Shown in pieces: positions 829-50,783 of a stretch of DNA of 60,710 bases. Source of the stretch: Alphaproteobacteria bacterium (GTDB lineage Bacteria; Pseudomonadota; Alphaproteobacteria; Rs-D84); assembly GCA_024402715.1 (NCBI GenBank), contig JAKSTF010000003.1:1-60710 (forward strand). The letters run 5' to 3'. The translations under genes were made by a program, and so were the position numbers. The notes below the pieces were generated by a model that searched no databases, had not been told where the DNA came from, and saw nothing but the letters and a program-made list of their open reading frames with translations. Within the stretch, counting starts at the first letter, position 1, and every line of letters begins with the position of its first letter.

Positions 829-2013
829 TTACTTACATTCAACCACACCCCAATAAAGGCCGGCCCCGTATTTTACGGCCATTTCATTTTTTGTTGAGTG
901 ACCACAAAATGGTATTCCACCACCACAGGTATATGTTATTCCACCAATTACACATGTGTTTTGATTTGTAAATTCTTCACATGGACATGCAACATTTGTA
1001 CAACCTTGGTTTAGTGTCATAAGATTTCCCAATGCCTTTGGACAACTGGAACTGATGCCACTTAATTTTGACAGGGATGCCGGATTGCGTGAATATTTAC
1101 TGTACATTTCACGACAGCCTGTTGTTTTATTTATTTTCCCATAACCTTGGACCTGTTGATTTGTGCAATTGGTTATGTACCATTTTTTCTGTGTGTCATC
1201 CCATACTTCGTACGTAGATGGGCAATCTGGTTTTGAAACACACGATTTGGGATCATTACCGGTATCATTTTGTGGAACAATACATGCAGAACCACTGCGT
1301 TCATAGCCATCCTGACACCGTTGATATGCGGTGTATGTCTGTTTGCAGGTGATGCTGGTATCTGGCCAATCACAATATTCTTTAATAATTTCATGTTTGT
1401 CATTCAAACATAACCAATCACGTTTACATGCCGATTTTGCGGTTTGTGTTTCACATTTTTTTACACCGCAGGGTTCTATGGCTGTTAGATTTTCTGGAAT
1501 AACATCATCGGTCGTTTCAGAGGCCGTTTTTTCAGGTTGTGAATTTGTTGCTGGCTGTGGTTGTTCTGGTGTTACAATAATTGGTTGGATAATCGTATGT
1601 TTTGATGTTAATAAATCTGGGTATGTTATGCCCAAGCATTTTTTGTATTCAGTAATATCTGTTTGGGTCCAACATTGTTGTTTGAATTCCATCCCCGCCA
1701 TATCTGATTTAGTTTTATTTTGACCCCACACTAAATCGGTTTTTTCTAATTTTGCAGCCGGCTGGCAGATACCGGTATCGTTATCAAAATAATACCCAAT
1801 GTCACATTGTATACATCCCGAACCAAAACCTTCGGGAAAATTTCCAAAACGTGTGTTGGTTAAGATGTCAGTGGGACATTCTTTTACACAATTGGCATTA
1901 TCGTATTGATATTTTGCCGTAACAGTTTCAAGAACGCATTCTGCATATGTACCAATTGGCATCATAAACAACATGGAAAAACAACCGTAAAAAATATTCC
2001 GTTTTTTTAACAT
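829..2013 (-). CDS. Secreted Cys-rich protein of unknown function (394 aa)
   Basis: The first 24 residues form a signal peptide ending GTYA before ECVLE. The mature protein has well over 30 cysteines, with CxxGY/CxxGYY units (CDIGYYFDND, CQDGYERSG), a Thr/Pro/Glu-rich middle around residues 150-180 and a C-terminal Cys-rich half. I recognise no family. The disulfide-like Cys density points to an exported protein. It starts 4 bp after the stop of the 469-aa gene and is the last gene of a three-gene run (5983 to 829). Surface or envelope function is inferred from the signal peptide and Cys pattern. Confidence 0.8.
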   Translation of the reverse strand: MLKKRNIFYGCFSMLFMMPIGTYAECVLETVTAKYQYDNANCVKECPTDILTNTRFGNFPEGFGSGCIQCDIGYYFDNDTGICQPAAKLEKTDLVWGQNKTKSDMAGMEFKQQCWTQTDITEYKKCLGITYPDLLTSKHTIIQPIIVTPEQPQPATNSQPEKTASETTDDVIPENLTAIEPCGVKKCETQTAKSACKRDWLCLNDKHEIIKEYCDWPDTSITCKQTYTAYQRCQDGYERSGSACIVPQNDTGNDPKSCVSKPDCPSTYEVWDDTQKKWYITNCTNQQVQGYGKINKTTGCREMYSKYSRNPASLSKLSGISSSCPKALGNLMTLNQGCTNVACPCEEFTNQNTCVIGGITYTCGGGIPFCGHSTKNEMAVKYGAGLYWGVVECK

Positions 2014-2017
2014 TGTT

Positions 2018-3427
2018 TTATTGTTTGTTTTTTACACATGTCGCGTATTCATCGGGGTCCATTTTTGTCCAACACCAATTTTCATTCCATTTTTGCCCGC
2101 CATTTGTTTTGGTTGGACCGTATAACAGATAGTTTTTTTCCATCGGTTCGGTGGACACGCAGGTGTTTCCCTTAAATATGTCGCCTGTATTACACTTTAC
2201 ACAAACACCATTGCTGTCAATGCCGGTTTTGGCATCGGTATTACATACATCACATGTGTAATCACCTGATTTTGTAAAGGCCATGTCATTATCTTTGCAA
2301 AAATATTTTATACAACCATTTTCGCTTAATGATTCATGAATACTGGCATCAAAATCCGTGGCTGGGAACCCCGGACAAAATTTCGGTTTCGATGCAGGGG
2401 CAGTTTGTGTTTCTTGGGCCGGTTCTGTTTGTGGTTCTGGAATCAGGGCGTCTGGAACAGGTTCTGCTTTTGGGGCAGGTTTACATGTGCCGTCGTCGGC
2501 AATGCCGTTATCGCATTTTACGCAGTCGCGTTTAGCGGTATCTGCAAAACCCTTTGAAGAATCTTTGCATTTGAATTTGCTGCACGTGCCATCAGAGAAT
2601 TCTGTATGTTGTGTGCTGTTAAATTGGTTTTCTGTGTATCCAGTGCACCAATTGGTAACGCAATCCGTTTCAGCTGCATTTGCCGTATATCCGGCGGCAC
2701 ATAATAATTTTTTTGTTCCGGTTTCTGCAACATTATCTACGTAACTGCGTGCAACTTTGTAGTCTTTGCGATGACAGTCAAATTGAACGGGACGGGCAAT
2801 AACACCATGTTTCAAATATTTTACAACCCCCAACACAACATCATGTTCGGGATCTTTGCCCCATTGTTTAAACCCAAGAACATATTTTTCACGTTCGCCA
2901 TCTTTGCCACCAGATGTTTTTAATTTTATATTGTTAAATTTTGTTGAATAATCGGTTGTATCTTTGGTTGTTGCACCGGATACACGTTGTGTGCAACCAT
3001 CACCAGTATAGCCAGATTTACATAATGTAATACAATCATTGGCGGTACATTGGCGATTGCTGCTGCACATTGGATAATAGTAGTTAGTATATGAATACTT
3101 TTCTTTGTCTTTGTTATTACATTGCATTTGATATGGACAAAACTGTGCACCGTTTTCGTATATTTTTTCTGCAATTAATCCAACAACAGCACCTTCGTCG
3201 CCTGGATATGTTCCACATGGCCCGTTGTTACAATCTTTACTGCCATATTTTTGCAAAACACCATCTAAAATAAAACCAGCAGATGTTCCTGTCGCATTTT
3301 GTTCGCCGTTGTACCCCCACCAAGACCATGTTTTAGCATCGGCTACAGTTATTGAATGCGCAGAATATCCAGGTAAAAAAGCAACCGCAAATAGACACCA
3401 TGCAATTAAATAAATATAACGTTTCAT
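2018..3427 (-). CDS. Secreted Cys-rich protein of unknown function (469 aa)
   Basis: The signal peptide occupies about residues 1-23 (hydrophobic YLIAWCLFAVAFLPG, then YSAHS). The N-terminal half holds WSWWGYNGEQ and a Cys-rich region with C-x-S-GYTGDGC. The middle has a CxAGYTAN unit, and a Pro/Glu/Ala-rich linker lies near residues 315-345. The C-terminal part is again Cys-rich and closes with a WCWTKMDPDEYATC motif. A similar 'CWTQTDITEYKKC' motif occurs in the downstream 394-aa protein, so the two share a domain (W..T..D..EY..C). Function is unknown. It sits 24 bp after the 843-aa gene and 4 bp before the 394-aa gene, probably in one transcript. Confidence 0.8.
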   Translation of the reverse strand: MKRYIYLIAWCLFAVAFLPGYSAHSITVADAKTWSWWGYNGEQNATGTSAGFILDGVLQKYGSKDCNNGPCGTYPGDEGAVVGLIAEKIYENGAQFCPYQMQCNNKDKEKYSYTNYYYPMCSSNRQCTANDCITLCKSGYTGDGCTQRVSGATTKDTTDYSTKFNNIKLKTSGGKDGEREKYVLGFKQWGKDPEHDVVLGVVKYLKHGVIARPVQFDCHRKDYKVARSYVDNVAETGTKKLLCAAGYTANAAETDCVTNWCTGYTENQFNSTQHTEFSDGTCSKFKCKDSSKGFADTAKRDCVKCDNGIADDGTCKPAPKAEPVPDALIPEPQTEPAQETQTAPASKPKFCPGFPATDFDASIHESLSENGCIKYFCKDNDMAFTKSGDYTCDVCNTDAKTGIDSNGVCVKCNTGDIFKGNTCVSTEPMEKNYLLYGPTKTNGGQKWNENWCWTKMDPDEYATCVKNKQ

Positions 3428-3451
3428 GTTTTTGTTTCTCCGTATTCATAT

Positions 3452-5983
3452 TTAATTTTGTGGTGCATAACAGGTTGAATTTTCCCAATACCCACCCAAC
3501 GATTTACAACGTTGTTCGTACCATTCATCTGTAAATTCACAGGAATCTGTTTGCGGATTATATTTTGCAACAACTGTATCGCCATCAGAATTCCATTTAT
3601 TACACGCAATGGCTACGCTGTTCGATAAACAATATCCCCAAGATGTGCGTTCAGCCGTTGCGTTATGATCAGAATACAGGGCCAAATAAAACGCACCCAA
3701 TGTTTCTGGGTTCCCACCAGTGGTTTTCAAATGATTATACTCTGTTGGGTTAACCCAATTACCATTTAATTCTGAACATTTTTCCGATAACTGTTCGGTT
3801 AATAGCTCATAAACATTCTTCAATGCCGAACGTGCCTGTTGTTGTGTCAATGCGGGTAAATTATTAAATGTTTGCGGATCCTTTGATGAAGGATCAAAAC
3901 AATTTTCAACCGCATATTTTGTAACAGTTCCTGCTAACGTTTTTGTACTGATACTGTCCAGAGTAACCGACGCCAGGTTATCATCGATGCCGTTACCATA
4001 GTCTAAACTGCGGCAATTCCATGGGTATTTATCGGTTCCATTTGTTGGGGTACATAATTTTTCCAAATAATTGTTTAATGCAACTTCGCACCCTTCGGCG
4101 GCACGTGAGTTATCAACACTGTCAACGAAATTCAATAATGCGGTTAAACCACATGTGCTAGCACCCTCGTCACCACCAATCAAGTGTCCCGCACCATCAA
4201 AATTACAGGCAGTGTTACCATTCGCATTACCATACAATGCGGCACAGGCAACAACCTTTTCCTTGCACATTGCTTTGGATGCATATGCGGCCAGGGCACC
4301 TGCCTGTTGTGATGTTGTCTGATCAAAATCTTTCAAAGCACCGCTTTGTTTGTCGTAACATTCGCGCATTGTTGAAACACAGTTGTTGCGAACTTCTTCG
4401 ACTTTGGCTGCCTGGGCCTGGGCGATTTCAATTATTGCGGTTCGTTTAAATTCATCCCATACGGTTTTGGAAATGTCACGACATGCATCCAATGCCTGGG
4501 TTGCAAACATTTTACGTTTTTCTAAGAAATCATTGAATTCTGGGTTCTTAGATAAAATCTCTGCACCGCCATCCAACTTGATCATATATTCCAATTGAAA
4601 TAAACGGGGACTGTAAATTGGTTCGCCGTTGCTGATATTTACATATGCGCCAGAATAATCCAAACATTTATAATAACCCTTGCCACAGGCTGTATCAGAT
4701 AACAGTGCCACCCGAACCTGATCCAAGCAGTCATTAACGTCTTGGGAGTTATGATTTCTGTATTCTTCCAATCTGGCATCACGTAACATTTTTTCTGCCT
4801 GGCGAACGGTGGCCATAGCGGTTTGTTTGGATGCATCGATCTTTTTGGCGTATGCATTACAATCCTGGGTTATCATAATGCTGTATGCACTTTTGGCCAT
4901 GGTTAATGTTGCATCATTTTCACACTGATCGCTGATCATTGCAACACATTGTGAATTTGATTTATTGTATAATTCTTTACCTTCCAATGTGGTTAAATCA
5001 ACACCGCTGCTGGAAAATGCGCTGCCGTTGTTGCCAAATCCGCCGCCGGACCATATATCACCGATATCAGATGAAAAATCCAACGATAACACGCCCATAG
5101 ATGTGCCGGATGTGGACGATTTTTTTGTGCTTTTCTTTTTCCCGGATAGTAAATCACCAATTTCACTTAATAAATTTGCAGATGCACTGGTGTCGTTTTT
5201 CATTGCTGCTTCGCCGGCAGTCGCAGAATACATTGCGTTTACCTCAGCTGCGGTTTTATCGACGGCATTCAAATTGTTGTTTTCAAAGTTTTGTAATAAA
5301 ATTTTGGCTTGATCTATGGCATCTTCCATGTCACGAAATTCTGTGAAACGTTCACTGCAAAAACATCTGCGATATTTATCATTTGCATTGGCACAAAATT
5401 GATCCATACATGTGGCATATGATTCACGACATGCTGCATATGCCCCCCCAATTTTAGATATATCTGTAAAAACGGCCGTTGCACGTGCCTGGGCGGCGCG
5501 TGATGCGTTTAGCGGTGTGGTGGCACTGCGACCACGTGCAATACCGGGTGTTGTTAACGCTGATATTCCGGAACGTGAAGTATTTGGGGTTGATATTGCG
5601 GAACGGACCGCAGTATTTGATGCAGCACTGCGTAAAGTGCCGGTGACATTTGTTGCGTTTTTGCGTGATGCCACAGAATTTATTGCATTGCGTGATGTTC
5701 CCGAACGTGATGCAGTGGTTGTAACCTTTGATACAATATTTTTTGCCCGTCTGTTTGATACTGTATGGCCGGTACCGGTCGTACCGGTGCGTGTTGTTGT
5801 GTTACCACGTTGTGTTTGTTGATCCACAGAACGCCCCACACGAACATCGGTGCGTCCCGTTGCATCAATTACAGTTGCACCACGTGGATTTGCCGTCTGT
5901 ATCGCATATGCATTGTTGTAAACAAATGCAACCGTCGCACAAATTAATCCAAAACCACAAAATTTATAAATGGAATTTTTCAC
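3452..5983 (-). CDS. Large secreted protein with Arg/Thr/Ser low-complexity head (843 aa)
   Basis: The start is GTG at 5983 with a purine-rich AAAGAGAGA about 8 bp upstream; the nearby ATG at 5990 is out of frame. A signal peptide ending NAYA is followed by about 150 residues of low-complexity Arg/Thr/Ser/Ala/Gly sequence containing 'SRSG'-like units. Next comes a Cys-containing region (ACRESYATCMDQFCAN, RRCFCSERF), a long Ala/Glu/Lys-rich part likely to be helical, and paired Cys throughout. The C-terminus is Cys-rich (CKSLGGYWENSTC). I do not recognise the family. It heads a run of three secreted-protein genes, so a joint envelope role is plausible but unproven. Confidence 0.8.
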   Translation of the reverse strand: MKNSIYKFCGFGLICATVAFVYNNAYAIQTANPRGATVIDATGRTDVRVGRSVDQQTQRGNTTTRTGTTGTGHTVSNRRAKNIVSKVTTTASRSGTSRNAINSVASRKNATNVTGTLRSAASNTAVRSAISTPNTSRSGISALTTPGIARGRSATTPLNASRAAQARATAVFTDISKIGGAYAACRESYATCMDQFCANANDKYRRCFCSERFTEFRDMEDAIDQAKILLQNFENNNLNAVDKTAAEVNAMYSATAGEAAMKNDTSASANLLSEIGDLLSGKKKSTKKSSTSGTSMGVLSLDFSSDIGDIWSGGGFGNNGSAFSSSGVDLTTLEGKELYNKSNSQCVAMISDQCENDATLTMAKSAYSIMITQDCNAYAKKIDASKQTAMATVRQAEKMLRDARLEEYRNHNSQDVNDCLDQVRVALLSDTACGKGYYKCLDYSGAYVNISNGEPIYSPRLFQLEYMIKLDGGAEILSKNPEFNDFLEKRKMFATQALDACRDISKTVWDEFKRTAIIEIAQAQAAKVEEVRNNCVSTMRECYDKQSGALKDFDQTTSQQAGALAAYASKAMCKEKVVACAALYGNANGNTACNFDGAGHLIGGDEGASTCGLTALLNFVDSVDNSRAAEGCEVALNNYLEKLCTPTNGTDKYPWNCRSLDYGNGIDDNLASVTLDSISTKTLAGTVTKYAVENCFDPSSKDPQTFNNLPALTQQQARSALKNVYELLTEQLSEKCSELNGNWVNPTEYNHLKTTGGNPETLGAFYLALYSDHNATAERTSWGYCLSNSVAIACNKWNSDGDTVVAKYNPQTDSCEFTDEWYEQRCKSLGGYWENSTCYAPQN

Positions 5984-11100: not shown

Positions 11101-11554
11101 TATTTAATATAGCCATACCAATTGGACCTGTATGTGCACCAGATAAACATATTAAACCATCGCTGTGGTTGGATAATTCATCAAATGAAATATATGGTCC
11201 CAAATGATGATTGTCGGTGCGCATGTACATGATGCGGCTGATTTCGCATAAATTTAAATAACCTGTATGGTTTTGTGCTAATAATACGATATGTGATAAA
11301 GATGATTCACGTAAAATTTTAGGATCGGCTGTGTGATGATTTAATGATATTTCTACACCAATAATTGGCTGTAAATGATTTTTCGGCATAACATCTGAAA
11401 ACTCAGCACAGCCAGACATTAAATTAGTGTCTGTTAATGCACAGGCCGACATATTTAAACCCGTGCATAATTTAGGGATATCTTTGACCCGGATGGTCCC
11501 AGCACCGACAGATAAACGTGAATGTGTGCGAAGATGAATAAACTGTTTTTCCAT
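8144..11554 (-). CDS. dnaE: DNA polymerase III alpha subunit
   Basis: This is the replicative polymerase catalytic subunit, 1136 aa from the chosen start (usual length about 1150). It carries an N-terminal PHP domain (residues 1-270), a polymerase core with the acidic pair in PDFDVDF (Asp401, Asp403) and the third acidic site in FDFLGLETL, and a C-terminal OB-fold region. In the PHP domain, HSRLSVGAG and TDTNLMSGCAEF replace the metal-binding residues of proofreading-type PHP domains, so it is probably inactive. The start at 11554 (MEKQFIHLRTHS) fits the family. It has no Shine-Dalgarno, and a promoter ends only 10 bp upstream. Confidence 0.97.
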   Translation of the reverse strand: MEKQFIHLRTHSRLSVGAGTIRVKDIPKLCTGLNMSACALTDTNLMSGCAEFSDVMPKNHLQPIIGVEISLNHHTADPKILRESSLSHIVLLAQNHTGYLNLCEISRIMYMRTDNHHLGPYISFDELSNHSDGLICLSGAHTGPIGMAILNNQAPLAKTFTQQFLDIFGDRFYMEIQRHGLTEEIKTEPAFLKLARELNIPIVATNDAAFGCADDYEAADALGCVLGQTKVIDPDRNRKSSEQYFKSSEEMAELFSDLPEAIENTVYIAHRCGFMVNVHEKPLLPRFGDDLETECAMLRKNTMDGLAQRLQEQNITDTDPYYEQAEFELGVIIGMGFPGYFLIVADYIQWCRNNDVLTGPGRGSGAGSIVAWALGITHVNPLKYGLLFERFLNPDRISMPDFDVDFEPTGIERVLAYICDKYGHDSVCRIITFGSLQARGAIRDIGRVYGIPYSKSDRLSKLIPQEAKTLKDAVDASSEIQDILATDDDMNKVVNVAEALEGSIRNLGQHACGVVIGDRPTTKIAPVYRDPANPLPSCQFDGHYLESAGLIKFDFLGLETLVVLKYAVKLIQQTRGINIDLDKIPVDDEKTMDLWQRGLTEGIFQFDAQFVQQTLRKMHPTSFLEISALNALNRPGPIAFIPQFIARMHGEEKIEYVHPKAEPILKETYGIIVYQEQVMQLTRALAGFTRGQSDTVRKAMGKKLIEKLNELEGKFFEGCEKEQTLDRDTAKKLWEQFKEFAKYAFNKSHAIAYSIVANQCAYLKANYPPEFLAASMSSNLNDTDQLAVFVDDAKSNFNIPIVAPDINQSESLFIVRDGKIIYGLAAIKGVGTTATDAIVAERNKNGRFKNLTDFAKRCAPIMNKRILEAFAKVGVLDSLEPNRAKIFMNADAILSYASKSRDGGNLLSLFANTVEDDVNENRLIQSLTVTEPWTFAQRLENELSALGFYISAHPLDQYKNLITRAKLATSATLIDLDDRKPVQIAANIGSFSRRRTKSGKDMITINASDSFGNIDAVAFGESASTFSQILSTETVVVISGKISNRDDRVSIFVDSITPLAQWVAKIAKRITLDIHNQSVLPDVKKALITLPNGPTRVILNLHTGNHVATITLPNGVELGANTAADFTGLGIKVNIE

Positions 11555-11564
11555 TATGGTTGCG

Positions 11565-11594
11565 ATCATAGCAAAAAATAGCAAAGCAGGGCAA
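11565..11594 (-). promoter_or_regulatory. Promoter of dnaE, nearly leaderless
   Basis: TTGCCC (11589-11594) and TATGAT (11565-11570) are 18 bp apart on the minus strand. The -10 box ends 10 bp before the ATG at 11554, leaving a 5' leader of only a few bases. Confidence 0.45.
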
Positions 11595-11636
11595 CCATAT
11601 ATTTAATAAAAATGGTAAAAAAAATATATAAATAAA

Positions 11637-11658
11637 AATCCCACCAAACGGTGGGATT
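11637..11658 (-). terminator. Terminator of rpsD
   Basis: AATCCCACC, loop AAAC, GGTGGGATT make a 9-bp stem, followed on the minus strand by a T-rich tract. It starts 19 bp after the rpsD stop. Confidence 0.85.
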
Positions 11659-11676
11659 TTTATTTGTATTCTATGA

Positions 11677-12309
11677 TTAACGAGAATAGAATTCAACAAC
11701 CAATTCAGGGAACATTTGAACAGGATATGGTACATCTGCAAATGCAGGTACACGTACAAATGTTGCGGTGAAATTAGCACTGTCAACATTGATATAATCC
11801 GGCCAATTGCGTTCTGCAGATTCCAATGCCAAAACAACCAATGGCATTTGTTTTGCTTTTTCGCTGACCGTGATAACGTCACCCGGTCTTACCTGATATG
11901 ATGCAATTTTAACACGTTTGCCATTAACCATGATGTGGCCGTGGCTGACCAATTGACGTGCCGAGAAAACAGTTGGTGCCAATTTAGAACGATAAACAAC
12001 CGCATCCAAGCGGCGTTCCAACAAACCAATCAAATTTTCTGGTGTGTCGCCTTTCATATTATCTGCTTCTAAATAATATGCACGGAACTTCTTTTCACCA
12101 ATATTGCCGTAATAACCCTTTAAAGTCTGTTTTGCACGCATCTGTTTTGCGTAATCAGACGAACTGGCCCCGCGGGAAGTAGGTCCATGTTGACCAGGTT
12201 TATATTTACGTTTGTTAAACGGAGATTTTGCTTGACCCCACAGGTTAACACCCAAACTGCGGCCAATTTTTAATTTTCTTGTGCTACGTTTTGCACCAGC
12301 TCTTGCCAT
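11677..12309 (-). CDS. rpsD: 30S ribosomal protein S4
   Basis: S4 binds 16S rRNA early in 30S assembly. The 210-residue protein begins [20 protein letters not shown] and has the S4 RNA-binding domain ([33 protein letters not shown]) at about residues 95-160. It ends in the typical [10 protein letters not shown]. It stands alone here between dnaE and rplS, not in an alpha operon. It has its own promoter (12422-12450), a leader of about 100 nt and a terminator. In other bacteria S4 represses its own operon by binding the leader, and the leader here could serve that role, though I see no specific structure. Confidence 0.97.
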
Positions 12310-12421
12310 TTTTTATCCTTATTTTTTGGTTTTTTCGGTGCCAGGCGAATAACAGAATCCTTATTTCAAACGGGACCAAAATGCACCGATGATTATTCAG
12401 CTCTGATTACCCAGCGACTGC

Positions 12422-12450
12422 ACTTTACTATATTCATTATGAAAATTCAA
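12422..12450 (-). promoter_or_regulatory. Promoter of rpsD
   Basis: TTGAAT (12445-12450) and TAAAGT (12422-12427) are 17 bp apart on the minus strand, giving a leader of about 105 nt before the rpsD ATG. Confidence 0.5.
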
Positions 12451-12479
12451 GTATTTTGTTGAATTATTTGCTGGTTATA

Positions 12480-12600
12480 TTGTAGTTGTGTATGGGTAAA
12501 TGGGGAATGTTGCGATGAATGGGGGCAGACCCGCACCGTTTGGAATGGCGGTGGACTGTTTGACAGTGATGCGGTGTGGAGAGGAAAGGTTGAAAAAAAT
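12480..12600. ncRNA. Possible structured small RNA, strand unclear
   Basis: This stretch is clearly richer in GC than its surroundings and is not protein-coding in any convincing frame. CCGCACC (12531-12537) can pair with GGTGTGG (12573-12579). Between them lies a perfect ACTGT/ACAGT hairpin (12555-12567). No match to SRP RNA, RNase P RNA or another known RNA was recognised, and no clear promoter was found. Confidence 0.2.
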
Positions 12601-12612
12601 TACAAAACAAAA

Positions 12613-12635
12613 AAACCGCCACCATGTGACGGTTT
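12613..12635 (-). terminator. Terminator of the rpsP-rplS operon
   Basis: AAACCGCCA, loop CCATG, TGACGGTTT pair with one mismatch, and a long run of A on the plus strand gives the T tract on the minus strand. It follows rplS by 32 bp. Confidence 0.8.
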
Positions 12636-12667
12636 TGCAAACACATATTTCATTATATGTATTTTTA

Positions 12668-13057
12668 TTATTTTTTGCCTTTTTCAGCAGATGTTGCAGA
12701 CAAATCTTCAACAATACGTGCCTTTTTGCCAGACAAACCGCGCAAGAAAAATAATTTTGCACGACGGACACGACCGATACGTACTTTTTCAATTTTTTCA
12801 ATAGCAGGGCTGTATAATGGGAATTTGCGTTCAACGCCAACACCGTATGATTCACGACGAACTGTGAATGATGCGTTGTTACCATTACCACCATCACGTG
12901 CGATAACAAAACCTTCGAATAACTGAATACGGAATTTGTCGCCATCTTTGATTTTTACGTGAACACGTACAGTATCACCGGCCTTAAATGCAGGAATTTC
13001 TTTGTTCGCATTTAATTTTGCAATTTGTTCAGCTTCGATTTTTTTAATGATATTCAT
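12668..13057 (-). CDS. rplS: 50S ribosomal protein L19
   Basis: L19 sits at the 30S-50S interface. The 129-residue protein reads [15 protein letters not shown], then [30 protein letters not shown] and [13 protein letters not shown], all standard L19 motifs. It ends in a short Lys-rich tail. It is the last gene of the rpsP-rimM-trmD-rplS operon, overlaps the trmD stop by 4 bp and is followed by a strong terminator. Confidence 0.97.
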
Positions 13058-13740
13058 TTTTCATTTTCCTTTATTAAATCCGGACGACGTTCTTTGGTTA
13101 TTTCGTCCGATTGTTGTTTCCGCCACCGTTCTATGTTGCCGTGGTGACCGGACAGCAGGACTTCTGGGACATTTTGTCCACGCCATACTGACGGGCGGGT
13201 GTATAACGGCCATTCCAACCCCCCGATTTCAAAACTTTCGTTCGTGGTGGATTCAGACCCACCATGCAATACATTATCCATCACGCGAACGCAACTGTCA
13301 ATAAAAACTTGTGCTGCAATTTCACCACCGGACAGAATGTAATCACCAATGGATAATTCGTGTATATTATACACATCTATGATTCTTTGGTCAATACCTT
13401 CGTATCGGCCACACAATAGTGTATAGGTTTCATTTGGATTTGCAATAAATTCGCGGACCATTTTTTGATTCAATCTTGGGCCACGTGGGGAAAAATAAAT
13501 TATTTTCCCTGGATTTTTTACAGAATCCAAGGCTTTTCCCAGTACATCAGCCCGCATAACCATTCCAGAACCGCCACCAAATTGCACATCATCGACACTG
13601 CCGTAATTATTAATTGAAAAATCACGAATATTTATAATGTCATATGACCATGTGCCATTATTCAGTGCACGTCCAACCACACCGGCACCAAGTGTTCCCG
13701 GGAATAATTCTGGAAAAATTGTCAAAATATTAAAATGCAC
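13054..13740 (-). CDS. trmD: tRNA (guanine-N1-)-methyltransferase TrmD
   Basis: TrmD methylates N1 of G37 in tRNAs that read CNN and some other codons, preventing +1 frameshifting. The 228 residues contain [16 protein letters not shown] at the N-terminus, [14 protein letters not shown], the trefoil-knot AdoMet site [15 protein letters not shown] and [11 protein letters not shown]. The C-terminal part has [23 protein letters not shown]. It lies between a small Cys-containing gene (5 bp away) and rplS (4-bp overlap). Confidence 0.97.
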
Positions 13741-17284: not shown

Positions 17285-18364
17285 ATGAAAAGAATTGGAA
17301 TTATGACCACCGGGGGGGATTGTTCTGGTTTAAACACAGTAATCCAACGTGTAATGCGTGGTGCGGCGTTACGTGGTTGGACTGTTATAGGTATTAATGA
17401 TGGGACAGACGGTTTGTTAACCGTACCCCAAGAAATAATAACATTAACGCCAGATGTATTATCAATTGAAAATTCACATTTATCGGGCAGTGTTTTGCAC
17501 AATGGACGTCCCGGTGCAATGAATTTTGCCGTTGCGGCACATAATGATACGTTGGCAGAATTTAAAAACCATTTACGTCGTTCATTACAGAATCTAAAAT
17601 TGGATGCGTTGATATTGGTCGGCGGAAATGGCAGTTTGTCGTTGGCGTGGTGTAATCGTGATATTTATGCAGATTTGCAATTAATATGTATTCCCAAAAC
17701 GATTGATTTGGATGTTCCGCAAACAGATATAACCGTTGGTTTTGATACGGCGGTTCAACAATTAACATCGTTTTGTGATCAATTGTTATTAACCGCACGC
17801 AGTCATCATCGTTGGTTTGTAGTCCAGGCGATGGGGCGTGATTGTGGGGAATTGGCATTGCATGCCGGTATCGCCGCTGGGGCCGAGGCTATATTGATTC
17901 CAGAAATAAAATTTGATTTGGATTGTTTGATTGCGCATATCCGCAATGCAAAAACAGATTATGGTATTATTATGGTATCCGAAGGGGTTTCATTGCGTGG
18001 ACATTCCGGACAGCCGGCCGATATTATTTCACGTCGTTTAAATGCCGAAGGAATTGCAAACAGAACCGCATTTCCGGAACATATTCAACGTTCGGGTGAT
18101 ACAACCGCACGTGACAGAATTACCGCCACGCAAATGGCCGAATGTGCATTAAATGCAATTGATAATAATGAAACATACGTTATGACGGCGATACAAAATG
18201 GGTATTGCAAAACAATTAGTTTGGCTGATTTTTTTGATTCCGGTAAATATATCCAGGATTCAAAAATAGATGGCCTGCAAACCTCAAATTCATATGTATC
18301 CCCGGACAGTCCATTGTTATCGTTGGCGTGTAATATGGATATATATATTGGTGAAATGCAATAA
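17285..18364 (+). CDS. 6-phosphofructokinase family protein
   Basis: The PfkA fold is clear: GGDCSGLN (10-17), GGNGS (113-117), PKTIDLDV (138-144), MGRDCGELALHAG (183-195) and HIQRSGDTTARDR (266-278). The family phosphorylates fructose 6-phosphate with ATP or pyrophosphate. The Lys in PKTID is usual in PPi-dependent and actinobacterial-type enzymes. The Gly in GGNGS is usual for ATP users, so the donor cannot be set from this. Two differences are notable: the Mg-binding Asp of GGDGS is Asn (residue 115), and the Asn of TIDND is Leu. It faces gpmI, the other glycolytic gene here, across a shared terminator. Confidence 0.85.
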   Translation: MKRIGIMTTGGDCSGLNTVIQRVMRGAALRGWTVIGINDGTDGLLTVPQEIITLTPDVLSIENSHLSGSVLHNGRPGAMNFAVAAHNDTLAEFKNHLRRSLQNLKLDALILVGGNGSLSLAWCNRDIYADLQLICIPKTIDLDVPQTDITVGFDTAVQQLTSFCDQLLLTARSHHRWFVVQAMGRDCGELALHAGIAAGAEAILIPEIKFDLDCLIAHIRNAKTDYGIIMVSEGVSLRGHSGQPADIISRRLNAEGIANRTAFPEHIQRSGDTTARDRITATQMAECALNAIDNNETYVMTAIQNGYCKTISLADFFDSGKYIQDSKIDGLQTSNSYVSPDSPLLSLACNMDIYIGEMQ

Positions 18365-43835: not shown

Positions 43836-43892
43836 TTTTTTGTTCGTTCGTGGTGTGATCATTTAAGCAAAAAAATCGATCCAAAAAAATTA

Positions 43893-43930
43893 TCCCCCAA
43901 AAAGATCAACTTTTTTCGGGGGGTATTTTT
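43893..43930 (+). terminator. Terminator of rpoD
   Basis: CCCCCAAAAAG, loop ATCAA, CTTTTTTCGGGGG followed by TATTTTTT. The stem is long with a one-base bulge. Confidence 0.8.
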
Positions 43931-43941
43931 TATGTAAAAAC

Positions 43942-43969
43942 TTGATTTTATTCCTGGACTGTTTAATAA
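43942..43969 (+). promoter_or_regulatory. Promoter of the small lipoprotein gene
   Basis: TTGATT (43942-43947) and TAATAA (43964-43969) are 16 bp apart, 41 bp before the ATG. Confidence 0.45.
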
Positions 43970-44010
43970 TACAAAACAGGTGTATTTAATTAAACAAAAG
44001 GCGAAATATC

Positions 44011-44217
44011 ATGAAACAGACAATTTTGTTAATAGCGGTTGCATTTACAATGTGTGGATGTTATACATATAAAACAACACATACAATTAAAACAGACGGC
44101 AAAGAATGTTCATACGTAGTCCACAAAAGTGGTAATGCATTGGTTGGATATTCCGAAACCGATTTAACAAATGAAAAACGTTCTGAAAAAGATTGTAATG
44201 CATGGATAAGTAAATAA
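44011..44217 (+). CDS. Small putative lipoprotein (68 aa)
   Basis: A short signal peptide ends in FTMCGCYTYK, where Cys17 fits a lipobox after a small residue. The mature part of about 50 residues is polar, with two more Cys that could pair. A Shine-Dalgarno-like AAAGGCGA precedes the ATG. The gene has its own promoter and terminator. Function is unknown. Confidence 0.7.
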   Translation: MKQTILLIAVAFTMCGCYTYKTTHTIKTDGKECSYVVHKSGNALVGYSETDLTNEKRSEKDCNAWISK

Positions 44218-44234
44218 ATTTTGTTTCAAAAATC

Positions 44235-44263
44235 AAATCCCCACCACTTTGGTGGGGATTTTT
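44235..44263 (+). terminator. Terminator of the small lipoprotein gene
   Basis: AAATCCCCACC, loop ACTTT, GGTGGGGATTT form a perfect 11-bp stem followed by T's. Confidence 0.9.
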
Positions 44264-44547
44264 ATATTTATCTGCCATAAAAATCTAACCAACGTTTTAC
44301 GTTTATACTGCATAAGTAGCATACCAAGTAAAAAATCTCAACAAAATTTTATCTTACACCACCATACAAGCACCAATTTTACAAAATGTATTTTATTGAA
44401 TTTACATATTTATTCTTTATTGCTTAAACATTTTTTCAATTTTAATTCAAATATAAATTTTTATTTGTTCCCAAATCAACAAACAACAAATTCTAACGTT
44501 CGTTAAAACTTTATGCTTATAACGAACATAAACATCGGATAAATACT
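44264..44547. other. AT-rich upstream region of the restriction-like locus
   Basis: This is about 280 bp of strongly AT-rich DNA without a credible gene. The only structured element is the inverted repeat at 44498-44527. This is the left border of the accessory locus. Confidence 0.5.
44498..44527. promoter_or_regulatory. Inverted repeat upstream of the helicase gene, possible operator
   Basis: GTTCGTTA (44498-44505) and TAACGAAC (44520-44527) are a perfect 8-bp inverted repeat with a 14-nt centre, 20 bp before the helicase ATG. The position fits a repressor site or an mRNA hairpin. Confidence 0.5.
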
Positions 44548-47358
44548 ATGTCAAAACAAATGATTATTTATTGGTACACAACCAAGAAACAATTCAATGA
44601 AATTGAACCGGGGCAAACATGGTGTATTGGTGAAGTTGACCCGAACGCCGGTAAATATTTTGGTATGTCCACCGCCAAAGCGGCCGAAACCCGCGTGCGT
44701 GAAGAACTGGGCAAAACCAAAGACGGGGCACGCATAACCTTTGATGATATTACCGATTTAGAATATGATTCATTTGAATTTCCGAACCCAAATAACAAAG
44801 AAAAAGGTATGGATAAAGATATCCATGCAATGTTAAAAAACATTAATTGTAAACAAATTGCCACAGAATGGTTTAATACTACACCTGATGAAATAAAACG
44901 TGTCATAGGGCATTTGGTTGCAGGGACATCACTTGGCACAAAATACGAATTACGCAAAAGACAAAGCAGCGCAATCGGCGCATTCAAGAAAGCATTGGAT
45001 AACAAACAAAAAAAATTTGGTTTATTCGCAATGCCACGATTTGGGAAAACAATATGTTCATTTGAAATGATGAATTTGTTGTTTGAAAGATTTCCAGACA
45101 AAAAATACATATTCTTTATTTCTGCAAAACTGGATGCAGAACAAGCATTGCGCGAAGATTATTATAAATTTGACCAAAGTTGTAATTTCAAATTATGTTT
45201 ATACGATTCTGATACCAAGGTCACATTAGAAGATTTACAAAAAGATAAATATCTGTTCTTTGCCAGCAAACAATGGTTTGATGGTAAAAACTTAGATGAA
45301 ATAAGAAAACGATTTCCCTGTGTAAATCACGACGATTGTGCGGCGGTGTTTTTTGACGAGGCTCATTTTGCCCGCATGACAGATAATGCCCAAGGCACAA
45401 TACGTTTATTAAATCCGTGTATGCAGATTGATATTACCGGCACACCGTTCAGACTAAAAACTAACGAAGATTATGACGATAACAACTCGTATGTTTATAG
45501 TGTTTTGGACGAATATGACGATTATGAAAATTCAGACAACAAAGACGCATTCCGGTTAAAGAATCCTGAAATGGTTTATATAACACCGAAAAATGAATTC
45601 TTTAAAACAGACAGTTCTTTTGGTGAATTTTTTGACAGTGATGACTGCAAAGACAGTATCAAAGAATGGGTGTCCAAAACATTCTATGGCGGAAAATTTA
45701 ATATCGACGGTAAACCATTGCCGATAACTAATGCCATTGTGGTTTTGCCGCCACGCCGTAAATATTGTGATTTGTTTGCTGCGGCTGTTAATGAATTAGT
45801 TCGCGACAACAAATACGCCATCAAATGCACAAAAACCACCACCAAAGATAACGATGACAGGGACTATATTCCTGACAATGAACAACGTTTCAAAGAATGG
45901 AATCGTATATGTAAAAACGAACCAAATTGTTTCCACCTGTTGGTGACAATTGGTAAAGGTTTACAGGCCGTGTCATTTCCCGATTGTCATGCAGTTATAA
46001 TGATGTGTGATATGACATCGCCAGAACAATACATTCAGGCGGCATTTCGCAGCAAAACACCAAACGGTATCAAAAAAGAAGCATATGTTGTTGACTATAA
46101 CAAAGGCCGCACATTACAGGTAATTGATACATTCATCAAGAATCATTTGGCGGTTCGGGCATGTGACGCAAATTACAAAACAGAATATCAACGCGCTTTG
46201 TCGCGTATTGATATCCGTGACCACACACTTGTTCGCCAAGAATATACATTTGAAGAAATATTCCAAACATTCATATCAAATTGGAATATTGAAAGAATTA
46301 CCGACACCATAGATTTTGATATAGAAAGATTGGTTAACAAGATAGATTTAAGCGGGGTTAAATTATCGGATTTACAAAAACCACATCAATTAACATTACA
46401 GTTAACTGAACGTGGCGACGATTATAAGCAATCAGCCCCCAAAACCGAAGAACCAGAAACAGGCACAGATGATGGCGGTGACGGCGGCGCCAAACATTTG
46501 GCACCTGATTGGTTGGAAAAACATATAGAAAAATTGAAATCAGATTTAATTAAATACGGATATATCCCATTTGGTGGCACCGAATCAGATAGATTGAAAG
46601 ATATAAATCCGGATGAAATACAAAGACGTGCATTACGTGTCGGCAAAAATGACGACGAACAAGATGTTTGGTCATATCTGGGCGGTGATGGCGATTGGGA
46701 TGATATATACATTGATGAATCTGGCCTGTCACCATCAACTGTTCGTTGGAAATACGTTATAAATAACAAGTTTGTTAATGTTAGTGGCGAAGGTTCACAC
46801 GGCGAAGGTGCCGCAGATATAAAAAAGGCGAAGGCATTCATAAACGCAATTATTCGTTATTTACCCGCATATTTCTTGGTTTCCGGTGTTCCAAATGGGT
46901 TTGATGATTTCAAAGACCGTTTCGGTCGTCAAACCGTTTCTGAAAAGCACCAAGAACGTCAGTTATTCCGTGAATTTATGGGGATGGGTATAGATTACCG
47001 TTATATCATTGAAATATTGAAAGTATGTGACGCAGGCAGTCGTGAACAAATCATTGCATATTGTGCGGACAAAGTTGCCAAATGTTATACCGCGGATGGC
47101 AAATTGATTCCAGAAAACGTTTTGGAATTACTGTGGGTTTATAAAAAAGACGGCAGCCGCCCTGTGCCAAAAGGGCTAGCCGACATAATGCGCAAAGATA
47201 AAAACTATGACATTGTCGTTTGTGGTGGTTATTGGTTAACAGATAGCACAACAAAAATATATATATATCACCGACAGTTTTGCAGAATCCAAAATCATAA
47301 AAAAATTACGCCCAAATTGTCAGGCCCTGTATTCCAACGACATTTTACAAACACTTGA
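44548..47358 (+). CDS. GIY-YIG-like nuclease/SF2 helicase protein of a restriction-like system
   Basis: Residues about 1-120 resemble the T5orf172/MUG113 branch of GIY-YIG nucleases, with Arg49 (ETRVREEL) and Glu107 (TEWF) as candidate catalytic residues; the GIY and YIG strands are degenerate. The helicase core has Walker A-like AMPRFGKT (161-168), DEAH (270-273), DITGTPFR (295-302) and the motif VI-like QAAFRSK (497-503). The C-terminal half is unassigned. Such proteins power DNA translocation in Type I, III and ISP restriction systems. The frame ends about 30 residues after an (AT)6 run at 47257-47268; one more AT unit would fuse it to the methyltransferase gene that follows. Confidence 0.85.
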   Translation: MSKQMIIYWYTTKKQFNEIEPGQTWCIGEVDPNAGKYFGMSTAKAAETRVREELGKTKDGARITFDDITDLEYDSFEFPNPNNKEKGMDKDIHAMLKNINCKQIATEWFNTTPDEIKRVIGHLVAGTSLGTKYELRKRQSSAIGAFKKALDNKQKKFGLFAMPRFGKTICSFEMMNLLFERFPDKKYIFFISAKLDAEQALREDYYKFDQSCNFKLCLYDSDTKVTLEDLQKDKYLFFASKQWFDGKNLDEIRKRFPCVNHDDCAAVFFDEAHFARMTDNAQGTIRLLNPCMQIDITGTPFRLKTNEDYDDNNSYVYSVLDEYDDYENSDNKDAFRLKNPEMVYITPKNEFFKTDSSFGEFFDSDDCKDSIKEWVSKTFYGGKFNIDGKPLPITNAIVVLPPRRKYCDLFAAAVNELVRDNKYAIKCTKTTTKDNDDRDYIPDNEQRFKEWNRICKNEPNCFHLLVTIGKGLQAVSFPDCHAVIMMCDMTSPEQYIQAAFRSKTPNGIKKEAYVVDYNKGRTLQVIDTFIKNHLAVRACDANYKTEYQRALSRIDIRDHTLVRQEYTFEEIFQTFISNWNIERITDTIDFDIERLVNKIDLSGVKLSDLQKPHQLTLQLTERGDDYKQSAPKTEEPETGTDDGGDGGAKHLAPDWLEKHIEKLKSDLIKYGYIPFGGTESDRLKDINPDEIQRRALRVGKNDDEQDVWSYLGGDGDWDDIYIDESGLSPSTVRWKYVINNKFVNVSGEGSHGEGAADIKKAKAFINAIIRYLPAYFLVSGVPNGFDDFKDRFGRQTVSEKHQERQLFREFMGMGIDYRYIIEILKVCDAGSREQIIAYCADKVAKCYTADGKLIPENVLELLWVYKKDGSRPVPKGLADIMRKDKNYDIVVCGGYWLTDSTTKIYIYHRQFCRIQNHKKITPKLSGPVFQRHFTNT
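47257..47268. repeat. (AT)6 run at the helicase-methyltransferase frame junction
   Basis: Six AT units lie in helicase codons 904-907. After the run, the frame of the methyltransferase gene is open back to this point, with 36 sense codons before its ATG. Adding one AT unit (+2) joins the two frames without a stop. Confidence 0.85.
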
Positions 47359-47377
47359 AAATGAAAGAGAAAACATC

Positions 47378-48214
47378 ATGAAATTCAAATCATTTATAAT
47401 GAATCCCCCCTATGGCAATCTGCATTTGCCAATATTAAAACAGATGATTGAAACAGTTGTTGATAACGGTGGTCATGGTGTTAGTTTACAACCAGTTCGT
47501 TGGTTGCAAGACCCATTAAAAGAATATAAACAAGGGACGGATTATAAGAGATTTGGGCAAGTTTTTAATAGTTATATAGACGATATTGTAATTATTCCTT
47601 CAACCGAATGTGGTAAATTATTTGGTGCTATATTTACAATGGATTTGGGCATATACAGGGCAAAACAAAATGCTGCACTACAATTAGATTCTTTCGCAAA
47701 AGATGAACTATTAGAAAAAATATTAAAAATATTAACAACACAAAGTCAATTTCATACAACAATAAGCAAAAAGATTGAAAAAGAAAAGCGATTTGGAATT
47801 CGTGTAAAAGTTAATGAAATACAAGATAATGGTAGAGCTGGTAACGGCGGTCGTAAATCGTATATAGGATTATATCAAACCTTTTTGGTGATAAATGGTT
47901 TAATTAATGGAAAAGATTGGACAGATTCAATACAAAAGAACCAACATAGCCGTCAAGAAGGCGATATGTTACCATATAGCATAGAGTTTGCAAACGAACT
48001 GTCAGCCAAAAATTTTATAGAATCAACAAAAACAATATTTTTTCAATATTTGCTATTAAAAATGCACCAAGACATACACATGCCAAGTCAATGGTTGCCA
48101 TTTATGAATGATTATTCTGAACCATGGACAGATGAACGGTTTTATGCATATTTTGATATAACACCAGATGAACAAAAAATAATCGAAAAGACGGTTAAAG
48201 ACGCAAAGAAATAA
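47378..48214 (+). CDS. Catalytic half of an N6-adenine DNA methyltransferase (NPPY motif)
   Basis: The motif IV catalytic NPPY is at residues 9-12 (FIMNPPYGNLHL), so there is no room for the AdoMet-binding motif I before it. The rest looks like the second half of Eco57I/Type III-like methyltransferases, ending SQWLPFMNDYSEPWTDERFY and AYFDITPDEQKIIE. The open frame reaches upstream to the (AT)6 run, which suggests it was, or in another phase is, the C-terminal part of the helicase protein. Its stop overlaps the start of the next gene by one base (TAATG). With the next gene it would supply a complete methyltransferase in reversed order. Confidence 0.82.
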   Translation: MKFKSFIMNPPYGNLHLPILKQMIETVVDNGGHGVSLQPVRWLQDPLKEYKQGTDYKRFGQVFNSYIDDIVIIPSTECGKLFGAIFTMDLGIYRAKQNAALQLDSFAKDELLEKILKILTTQSQFHTTISKKIEKEKRFGIRVKVNEIQDNGRAGNGGRKSYIGLYQTFLVINGLINGKDWTDSIQKNQHSRQEGDMLPYSIEFANELSAKNFIESTKTIFFQYLLLKMHQDIHMPSQWLPFMNDYSEPWTDERFYAYFDITPDEQKIIEKTVKDAKK

Positions 48215-48765
48215 TGACACGTAAAAACGGTTTTTATAATTGCGATAATTGTGCGGGGGATTTGTGTTTGACACGTGCCGAATGTAAATCCGCCGGTGCT
48301 TTTCATACACCAAAAAAATTGGCCATGAACATGGCAAAAAAGTTATATCCAGATTACTTAAAATGTAAAACCAAAGCGGAAATTATTGAAAAATTCGGTG
48401 AACGGGGGCGCGAATTTTTAAATGGTTTTAACTTGATTGACCCATGTTGCGGAACGGGTAATTTGTTGGCCGCTGCGATGAATGTATATAAATGGATGGA
48501 TGAAGAAGATTTATATGGGGTTGATATTGACCCACGGGCCGTTGAGTTCTGTATCAAAAAATTTCCCCACGGACATTTTCAGGTCGGTGATTGTTTATTA
48601 GAAGATTTAACAGACGATAAATTTTGGCAACACCCATCCGATGGACTATTCGGGGCATACAAGGCAGAAAAATTACAAGCCGCCACAGCAATATTAAAAG
48701 ACAAAAGTATAAAACAACGTAAAGAATTATCAAACGTTCTTTTACAGGAAAAACATATCAATTGA
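48214..48765 (+). CDS. AdoMet-binding half of an N6-adenine DNA methyltransferase
   Basis: Residues 76-83 are the motif I DPCCGTGN, followed by the motif II-like GVDIDPRAVEFC (102-113) and FQVGDCLLEDL. FHTPKKLAMNMAKKL before it fits motif X. An N-terminal Cys cluster (CDNCAGDLCLTRAEC, residues 10-24) could bind zinc. No NPPY follows: the protein ends in a helical tail at residue 183. The missing catalytic half is the preceding gene, so the two probably act together. It is followed by the second copy of the 42-bp repeat. Confidence 0.82.
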   Translation: MTRKNGFYNCDNCAGDLCLTRAECKSAGAFHTPKKLAMNMAKKLYPDYLKCKTKAEIIEKFGERGREFLNGFNLIDPCCGTGNLLAAAMNVYKWMDEEDLYGVDIDPRAVEFCIKKFPHGHFQVGDCLLEDLTDDKFWQHPSDGLFGAYKAEKLQAATAILKDKSIKQRKELSNVLLQEKHIN

Positions 48766-48791
48766 TTTTATACACCAACATTCTCGCCCGT

Positions 48792-48833
48792 CGTCACCAC
48801 GTTGCAGAACGGGTTGCACCGCAATGCGGACGT
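48792..48833. repeat. 42-bp dispersed repeat, copy 2
   Basis: It matches 611-652 at about 36 of 42 positions. It lies just after the methyltransferase genes, at the right border of the accessory locus. Confidence 0.75.
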
Positions 48834-48857
48834 GATAGTATCCATTACACAAAAATA

Positions 48858-50783
48858 TTATACGTTTCCTTTTAATGATGTATAAATTTTACCTAAATCT
48901 TTTTGCAATATATCCACAATCAAATTGTCACTATTTTCTGTTTTTTTGGCACCAGCTAATATTTTTTCAAATCCACGAACAAATTGTGTTGCCTGGGAAT
49001 GAAATACGCTGTTGTTTTTTAATAATGACTGCAATTGTTTTTTGTCTGTGTTTGCCAAAACCTTGGCAACCCATTGTGAAAACACCGTTTTATCTCCAGC
49101 ATGATATTTTTTCCAAACCATATCTGGAACCTTTGCACTGACCCCCGTCGCCATGACCAAATCATATGATTGATCGTGCATTTTATCAAACATACGTTCG
49201 CATTGCTTTAAAAAATCCGTGCTGCTGATTGTTGCACCAAATGTTTGTGGTACGGGAACCGTTCGTATTGCATCCATCGGGGCCGCAGCACGTGCAACCA
49301 TCATTTGTTTATTTAATGTCTGCATTGTTTCAACGGCCTTGGCGTAATCTGACATCAAATCTATCATTTGTTGACGTGATTGGCCGGCCAAATCTTCCAA
49401 TTTTGCCGATGATTCACCAACGGTGATTGCAGATTCTGAGACACTGCGTTTCATCGAATCAATTTTTTCATTCAAAGATGTTATATTGCGTTCCATATTT
49501 TGTGCAATTTCATTTGAATCGTGTGCAACTCCCGGTAATGTGGCATAATAACGTTCAATCAATTCCGATAACGGCTGTAATTTAGCAGTCGTTTCTTCGG
49601 ACATTTTTATCAATCCCTGTGATTGACCGGTTAACTGTGTATGTGCCTCATTCATTTTAATTAATGTTTCACGCACTCCGGTTGCCATCGCACGCACAGA
49701 TTCAGAAAATGCCCCCGCAGATTTTCGCGTATTTTCCAATGTAACATTGGCGGTGCCAGATACATTTTTCAATTCATTTACAACATCCGCCGCAAACTCT
49801 TTGATTTCTGAATTAAATCTGTTTGTTAATCCGGTTAATTCCGTCGATATACCACGAACCGCATTTTCTGTTGCTGCACCCGAATTTATCAATGCAGTAA
49901 CGATTTCTTGTATTTTTTCATCCTGTTTATTAATTGACGATTCCGCCAAACGAATCTGTCCACCCACCAAATTCGACGTATTTGTTAACGCATTCACCTG
50001 GGCCGATAATTGGCGTTTTAGGCGTTCCATATTATTAACTTGATCTGTTAATAATCTATTATTTTGTTCCATTAATGATTTATAATCTGTGGCCGACGAT
50101 TGAACATTTGCAAAACCTGATGCTGTAGATTGATTCAATGTTTCCATCTGATTACGTAAAACATCCGATTGCGCTGTTAATTCCTTCATTTGATTTTCAT
50201 TTGTTTCAAATGCGGATTTTAGATGTTGCCCCAATACATCACTGGATGAAATCCAGGAATCTATTTGATTATGAATTGCAGATATTTTTTCAGTTGTATC
50301 TTGGGTTGTTGTATCAACTTTGGCCAATGTCATGTTGATTGTATCGGAAAAACGTTCGGCTGCCCCCAATGCATCCGCCCAATCATTTGACATAACAACA
50401 CTGTTTAATCCTGTAACCGTATTATCAAGACGTTGTGTCATAACAGACAATTGCTTAACCGATGCATCAGCCATTCCGACCAATTTTTCATTTTGTATTT
50501 TTATCGACTTTTTCAATTCTTCCGCCGCCGCAATATGCCCCTGCAGTGAATCCGACATAGATTTAAACAATGTTTCAATTGTTGTAATTTCATCCGACAT
50601 AATCGTGCGAAATACACGTGCGGCATCACCAACCTTGGCACGACCGGGGCGGGTTATTATTTCCAATACAGATTCCATAACACGCTGCGTTCGACGCGAT
50701 ACCCAAAACAACGATACCAGTGTTCCCGCCAATAACACCGCAAAAACCGACGCTGTAACCAAATATATCAATTCCCAATCCAT
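48858..50783 (-). CDS. Membrane-anchored coiled-coil protein (641 aa)
   Basis: One N-terminal membrane segment (about 5-28, LIYLVTASVFAVLLAGTLVSLFW split around residue 15) precedes roughly 480 residues of Gln/Asn/Ser/Thr-rich helical sequence with heptad-like spacing, such as ETLFKSMSDSLQGHI and NRLLTDQVNNMERLKRQL. A distinct globular end follows (about 530-641, with DFLKQCERMFDKMHDQSYDL and WKKYHAGDKTVFSQWVAKV). This resembles chemoreceptor or RmuC-like scaffolds in overall shape but lacks their signature motifs. It is divergent from addA. Function is unknown. Confidence 0.75.
   Translation of the reverse strand: MDWELIYLVTASVFAVLLAGTLVSLFWVSRRTQRVMESVLEIITRPGRAKVGDAARVFRTIMSDEITTIETLFKSMSDSLQGHIAAAEELKKSIKIQNEKLVGMADASVKQLSVMTQRLDNTVTGLNSVVMSNDWADALGAAERFSDTINMTLAKVDTTTQDTTEKISAIHNQIDSWISSSDVLGQHLKSAFETNENQMKELTAQSDVLRNQMETLNQSTASGFANVQSSATDYKSLMEQNNRLLTDQVNNMERLKRQLSAQVNALTNTSNLVGGQIRLAESSINKQDEKIQEIVTALINSGAATENAVRGISTELTGLTNRFNSEIKEFAADVVNELKNVSGTANVTLENTRKSAGAFSESVRAMATGVRETLIKMNEAHTQLTGQSQGLIKMSEETTAKLQPLSELIERYYATLPGVAHDSNEIAQNMERNITSLNEKIDSMKRSVSESAITVGESSAKLEDLAGQSRQQMIDLMSDYAKAVETMQTLNKQMMVARAAAPMDAIRTVPVPQTFGATISSTDFLKQCERMFDKMHDQSYDLVMATGVSAKVPDMVWKKYHAGDKTVFSQWVAKVLANTDKKQLQSLLKNNSVFHSQATQFVRGFEKILAGAKKTENSDNLIVDILQKDLGKIYTSLKGNV

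Follow-up and report, generated by a model that had tools for sequence, protein, structure and literature searches.

Type ISP enzymes such as LlaGI and LlaBIII carry, in this order, a nuclease, an SF2 translocase, a middle region and a methyltransferase part (PMC3874165, PMC4666363). In M. mycoides, a dinucleotide run inside the restriction-modification gene mmyCImod, present as (AG)12 or (AG)10, sets the reading frame of that gene (PMC3498834). Dinucleotide phase-variable restriction-modification genes and Type ISP-like designs are both known already, and the system that we describe here may add to them. It was found in a stretch of 60,710 nucleotides, the whole of which we will call the window. 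The window belongs to an uncultured alphaproteobacterium with a draft genome of ~1.0 Mb (63 contigs, 5.55% estimated contamination), which we presume to be of gut origin and to belong to the genus Enterousia, both being guesses on our part.

When 84,980 species genomes were scanned, two close relatives emerged, L009 and L008, which were matched through their contigs to genomes G150 and G152, both in the genus of the window. Of the relatives that have the complete locus, L009 is the closest (~65% identical), and in it one continuous frame of 1,227 residues spans what is split in the window between two open reading frames, A and B, and is followed by a third one, C. Type ISP appears, from the sequence, to be the closest described design: the intact L009 protein is likewise a single chain, in which head, helicase, middle region and NPPY part are held together in the same order. 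The resemblance has limits, however. The head is GIY-YIG-like (a weak match) and not Mrr, the AdoMet motif I sits in a separate small protein with no complete gamma methyltransferase in the long chain, no recognition domain was identified in the L009 chain, and the window allele is broken. With mmyCImod the locus shares a dinucleotide run that sets the frame of a restriction-modification gene, but the window run has six units, is made of AT and not AG, lies in the gene of a long fused enzyme, and is known here with one count.

The operon and its genomic setting

ORF A (44548-47358, + strand) encodes 936 amino acids, which comprise a GIY-YIG-like (T5orf172/MUG113-like) head, an SF2 helicase, a middle region and the start of a methyltransferase part. 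The helicase is of the ResIII/SWI2 type (ResIII, E=5.1e-14) and carries the motifs AMPRFGKT and DEAH, while the T5orf172/MUG113 match of the head is weak (E about 0.005, below the cut-off), and a Pfam profile search of that head gave no Mrr match. ORF B (47270-48214, + strand) is the remainder of the fused protein, with 314 amino acids and an NPPY motif IV at 47402-47413; read from its own ATG at 47378, it would give a product of 278 amino acids. It has no significant Pfam match despite its NPPY. A third gene, ORF C (48214-48765, + strand), which was absent from the earlier note, belongs to the same unit, and its start overlaps the stop of ORF B as TAATG, an overlap also found in L009. ORF C is a probable small methyltransferase subunit, with a motif X-like GAFHTP, the motif I DPCCGTG, no NPPY, an N6_Mtase match above the cut-off (E=4.5e-05) and a partner in L009. 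The AdoMet motif and the NPPY thus lie on different polypeptides in both species, on adjacent proteins at 47270-48765 in the window and 8710-10232 in L009, and with both motifs present (C and B, respectively) the system as a whole would be an N6-adenine DNA methyltransferase. Searches of PADLOC, NCBIfam and PDB sequences found no family for the long protein beyond the helicase, and no solved structure was matched by its sequence. AlphaFold predicted the C-terminal part of L009 and ORF C poorly (mean pLDDT 40, the alignments having 4 and 2 sequences).

On its two sides the operon has rpoD and a conserved gene of 641 amino acids, the latter followed by a UvrD-family helicase gene (window 43836-48858). 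The distance from rpoD to the 641-amino-acid gene is about 0.74 kb in G001 and 5.0 kb in the window, so the window locus looks like an insertion site. Around the L009 operon (890-5569 and 11154-13526) we observed a resolvase, an AAA ATPase/RloB-like pair, a weak match to a Phage_CRI-type replication protein and a phage integrase. Since resolvase, RloB-like pair and integrase are its neighbours, the L009 operon probably sits in a mobile defence island. Searches for mobile relatives gave no close relative of ORF A or of ORF B in phages, plasmids or viral contigs, none of ORF C in viral contigs, no close match of the locus DNA in plasmids and no copy of the repeat-flank pattern in viral contigs; the only plasmid matches to the system were remote helicases.

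More distant cousins show the same parts in other arrangements. Helicase, NPPY protein and small AdoMet-motif protein are separate in C61 (this genome), G125 and G084, G006 has a helicase with an NPPY partner, and in G152, G128, G137 and G174 single open frames of 1,335-1,373 residues carry the helicase-side and NPPY parts. Except for G006, these cousins form the Eco57I-family systems of the genus, which resemble the window system in pairing a T5orf172-ResIII helicase with an NPPY protein (PF07669, Eco57I), and of which C61, G125 and G084 have the small AdoMet-motif protein alongside. The window and L009 proteins are, in contrast, too diverged for the PF07669 model, and gene order and fusion state differ. 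In profile comparisons, the L009/window B region aligns to the NPPY cousins over its C-terminal 98 columns (E=1.3e-7), and ORF C matches the small cousins in the region of motifs X, I and II (E=1.7e-6). The motif partition is also the same in the cousins L035 (4693-6835), L075 (1103-3263) and L076 (4261-6355), and some cousin NPPY proteins carry a degenerate motif I, such as DPCCKSG.

An (AT)6 run at the break of the reading frame

An exact, uninterrupted (AT)6 run is found inside the coding frame at 47257-47268 (+ strand), just where the earlier note had placed it, and it is both the site of the frame break relative to L009 and a candidate slippage tract. It is the longest dinucleotide run of the window, the only other one with at least five units being an (AT)5 at 18339, and Markov models of order 1-5 predict 0.014-0.086 occurrences of the sequence ATATATATATAT per strand of the window. 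With its flanks, the repeat reads ACAACAAAA-(AT)n-CACCGACAG. After the repeat ORF A is out of frame, and counted from the first base of the run it continues for 33 codons to its stop at 47356-47358, which agrees with the earlier description of a helicase frame ending shortly after it. In frame B, no stop codon occurs from 47240 until the one at 48212-48214, and 36 sense codons (47270-47377) stand ahead of its ATG. The openness of these codons is weak evidence by itself, since wrong-frame stretches of 36 codons, taken from real genes of this DNA, lack a stop in about 6% of cases. They do, however, match L009 (TDSFAESKIIKKLRPN in the window, TDNFSDAEIMKKLRPN in L009), with identities of 64/78/44% at the three codon positions, the third being the weak one. 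The earlier claim that they read as protein is thus borne out by a fused relative.

The alignment with L009 places the frame switch between 47256 and 47270. At the break, L009 reads AAA ATG TAT ATT ACA GAT and the window AAA (AT)6 C ACC GAC; the L009 site, ATGTATATT, contains no repeat. Between the same flanking codons there are 13 bases in the window and 9 in L009, which puts the switch inside the tract and makes the L009 length the equivalent of four AT units. The number of units decides the frame, and the fused reading is obtained only for counts equal to 1 modulo 3. The window protein would then have about 1,220 residues (903 + 3 or 5 + 314), a little below the ~1250 first proposed, and the fusion of helicase and methyltransferase that had been predicted from the window has its counterpart in the single L009 protein, which reads through the point where helicase homologues might have ended. 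Transcriptional slippage at the break is unlikely, as the nearest homopolymer is only an A5.

Constraint is similar on both sides of the break. Amino-acid identity to L009 is 66% for A, 60% for B (across 314 amino acids) and 63% for C, with a dN of 0.27, 0.32 and 0.26, respectively, the pairwise dS being near-saturated, and the 4.2 kb of A, B and C show no further lesion in the comparison with L009. Nothing in L009 corresponds to the 33 codons that A adds after the run. As far as this comparison goes, A and B are not two natural genes but the frameshifted form of a gene that is normally fused, since the switch falls within the 13 bases that hold the repeat and constraint is alike on either side. 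Likewise, the conserved 36 codons, the lack of an L009 counterpart for the last 33 of A and the even dN indicate that the break is recent, reversible or not real, rather than an old gene boundary.

This bears directly on the idea that (AT)6 is itself functional, with A and B as two working polypeptides, or with a +1 ribosome shift at the run. Separate helicase, NPPY and small AdoMet-motif subunits do exist in C61, G125 and G084, and an ATG stands just ahead of the NPPY motif in both the window species and L009, where, at about 8800, an AAGGA lies 7 nt before this internal ATG and may mark an internal start for the methyltransferase half. The cut, however, interrupts a stretch that is conserved in the fused form, translation from the ATG would leave out the 36 conserved codons ahead of it, and the final 33 codons of A match nothing, so that we regard natural fission or recoding as very improbable.

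An error of sequence or consensus, by which a draft assembly would misreport the count of a gene that is truly in frame, is improbable too, if slightly less so. The fragmentation and estimated contamination of this genome speak for it, and so does the contig of L008 (CALYRP010000082.1), which ends at 3962, 7 nt before the site homologous to the AT run. Short-read sequencing, on the other hand, normally reads a dinucleotide run of 12 bases correctly, although the platform used here may differ. The position of the L008 end is odd and probably a coincidence; we dropped repeat-length polymorphism as its cause, since the contig stops before the tract and not inside it, the wrong place for such a branch.

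A possible slippage switch

We propose, at close to an even chance, that this is a restriction-modification operon whose out-of-frame allele is one state of a reversible on/off switch. Its long gene would encode a GIY-YIG-like nuclease, an ATP-driven translocase and the NPPY part, and would be followed by the small AdoMet-motif gene. The out-of-frame allele would have arisen by a slipped-strand change of the AT run, which lies close to where the methyltransferase part begins. With six units, the product would be a nuclease-helicase of 936 residues that lacks the NPPY and C-terminal part, and the enzyme should then not restrict DNA in a site-directed way; the NPPY part could be produced, if at all, only on its own from the ATG at 47378. 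As B starts there right before NPPY and C supplies motifs X and I, methylation without restriction by these two proteins is conceivable. Slippage that brings the count to 1 modulo 3, by adding or removing units, would restore the single chain of about 1,220 residues, which together with C would methylate and restrict. The site would most likely behave as a low-to-moderate-rate switch.

Several lines of evidence speak for this proposal: L009 reads through as 1,227 residues with a TAATG-linked partner, the reading frame changes within the 13 bases that include the run, codons translated only in the fused reading are conserved, the 4.2 kb show no other damage and a similar dN across the break, unusually long AT tracts occur elsewhere in this genome, and the M. 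mycoides mod gene provides a precedent with its (AG)12/(AG)10 alleles (PMC3498834). Against it, the run is known from one sequence (one genome per species) and L009 lacks the repeat, MutS is present in the genome, and the two units gained relative to the L009 length would need either two successive steps, a single double step or the loss of one unit from a run of seven. The absence from L009 lowers the claim of a contingency locus without removing it, because such tracts can be species-specific. Six units are also short by published experience. They equal the cut-off used in Campylobacter (six or more units), near which rates may be too low for switching (PMC6321876), and fall below the cut-off of 8 units used in Neisseria, in which dinucleotide tracts were invariant (PMC5953494); in Haemophilus, 7 of 8 five-unit loci changed in sequence and not in length (PMC2651432). 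Phase variation at (AT)6 is nevertheless plausible.

The shortness of the run and its absence from L009 would equally suit a recent fixed loss, in which a single slip or indel in the run has put the enzyme out of action, the repeat is no switch and the gene is on its way to becoming a pseudogene. The presence of the system in only 3 of the 201 genomes of the order points the same way. The intact state of A, B and C, with purifying-type divergence throughout, argues against such a loss, yet it only shows that the break is recent; we consider this explanation unlikely, but a serious one, and the earlier note had already raised it, along with a sequencing error. Between it and a reversible switch, we retain the latter as our working reading.

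Other AT tracts in the genome

Only five places in this genome have at least six AT units. Besides the coding run, there are four (AT)8-9 tracts (L083, L032, L033 and L034; in genome G000 at C4:3309-3326, C25:5878-5893, C36:2430-2445 and C63:27286-27301), as against two (AT)7 in total across 140 sampled other genomes of the genus. Each of the four is followed, after roughly 20-40 nt, by a gene whose protein is rich in cysteine and has a signal-peptide-like start; in 3 of the 4 a TTGCAA, possibly a -35 box as read by eye, stands directly at the tract. Their position is suited to promoter switching, which makes them candidates for promoter phase variation. Their layout, unlike that of the coding tract, resembles the hif fimbrial promoter of Haemophilus influenzae with its (TA)9-11 (PMC2651432); hif is a case of promoter switching, whereas the candidate promoter boxes of the present genome were identified by eye. 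We rejected a loss of MutS as the cause of repeat growth, since the gene is present. That AT slippage serves this organism as a general switch, acting through the coding tract on the GIY-YIG-helicase-methyltransferase enzyme, whose methyltransferase is spread over two polypeptides, and through promoter tracts on exported cysteine-rich proteins, seems to us rather doubtful.

Implications

The locus is a sign that some helicase and methyltransferase genes that appear separate in draft genomes are in fact one gene. If the switch is real, a single dinucleotide would determine whether the cell makes a complete restriction-modification protein or a motor that lacks the methyltransferase part, and repeat-driven control of restriction would extend to a poorly known group of bacteria with genomes of ~1 Mb.
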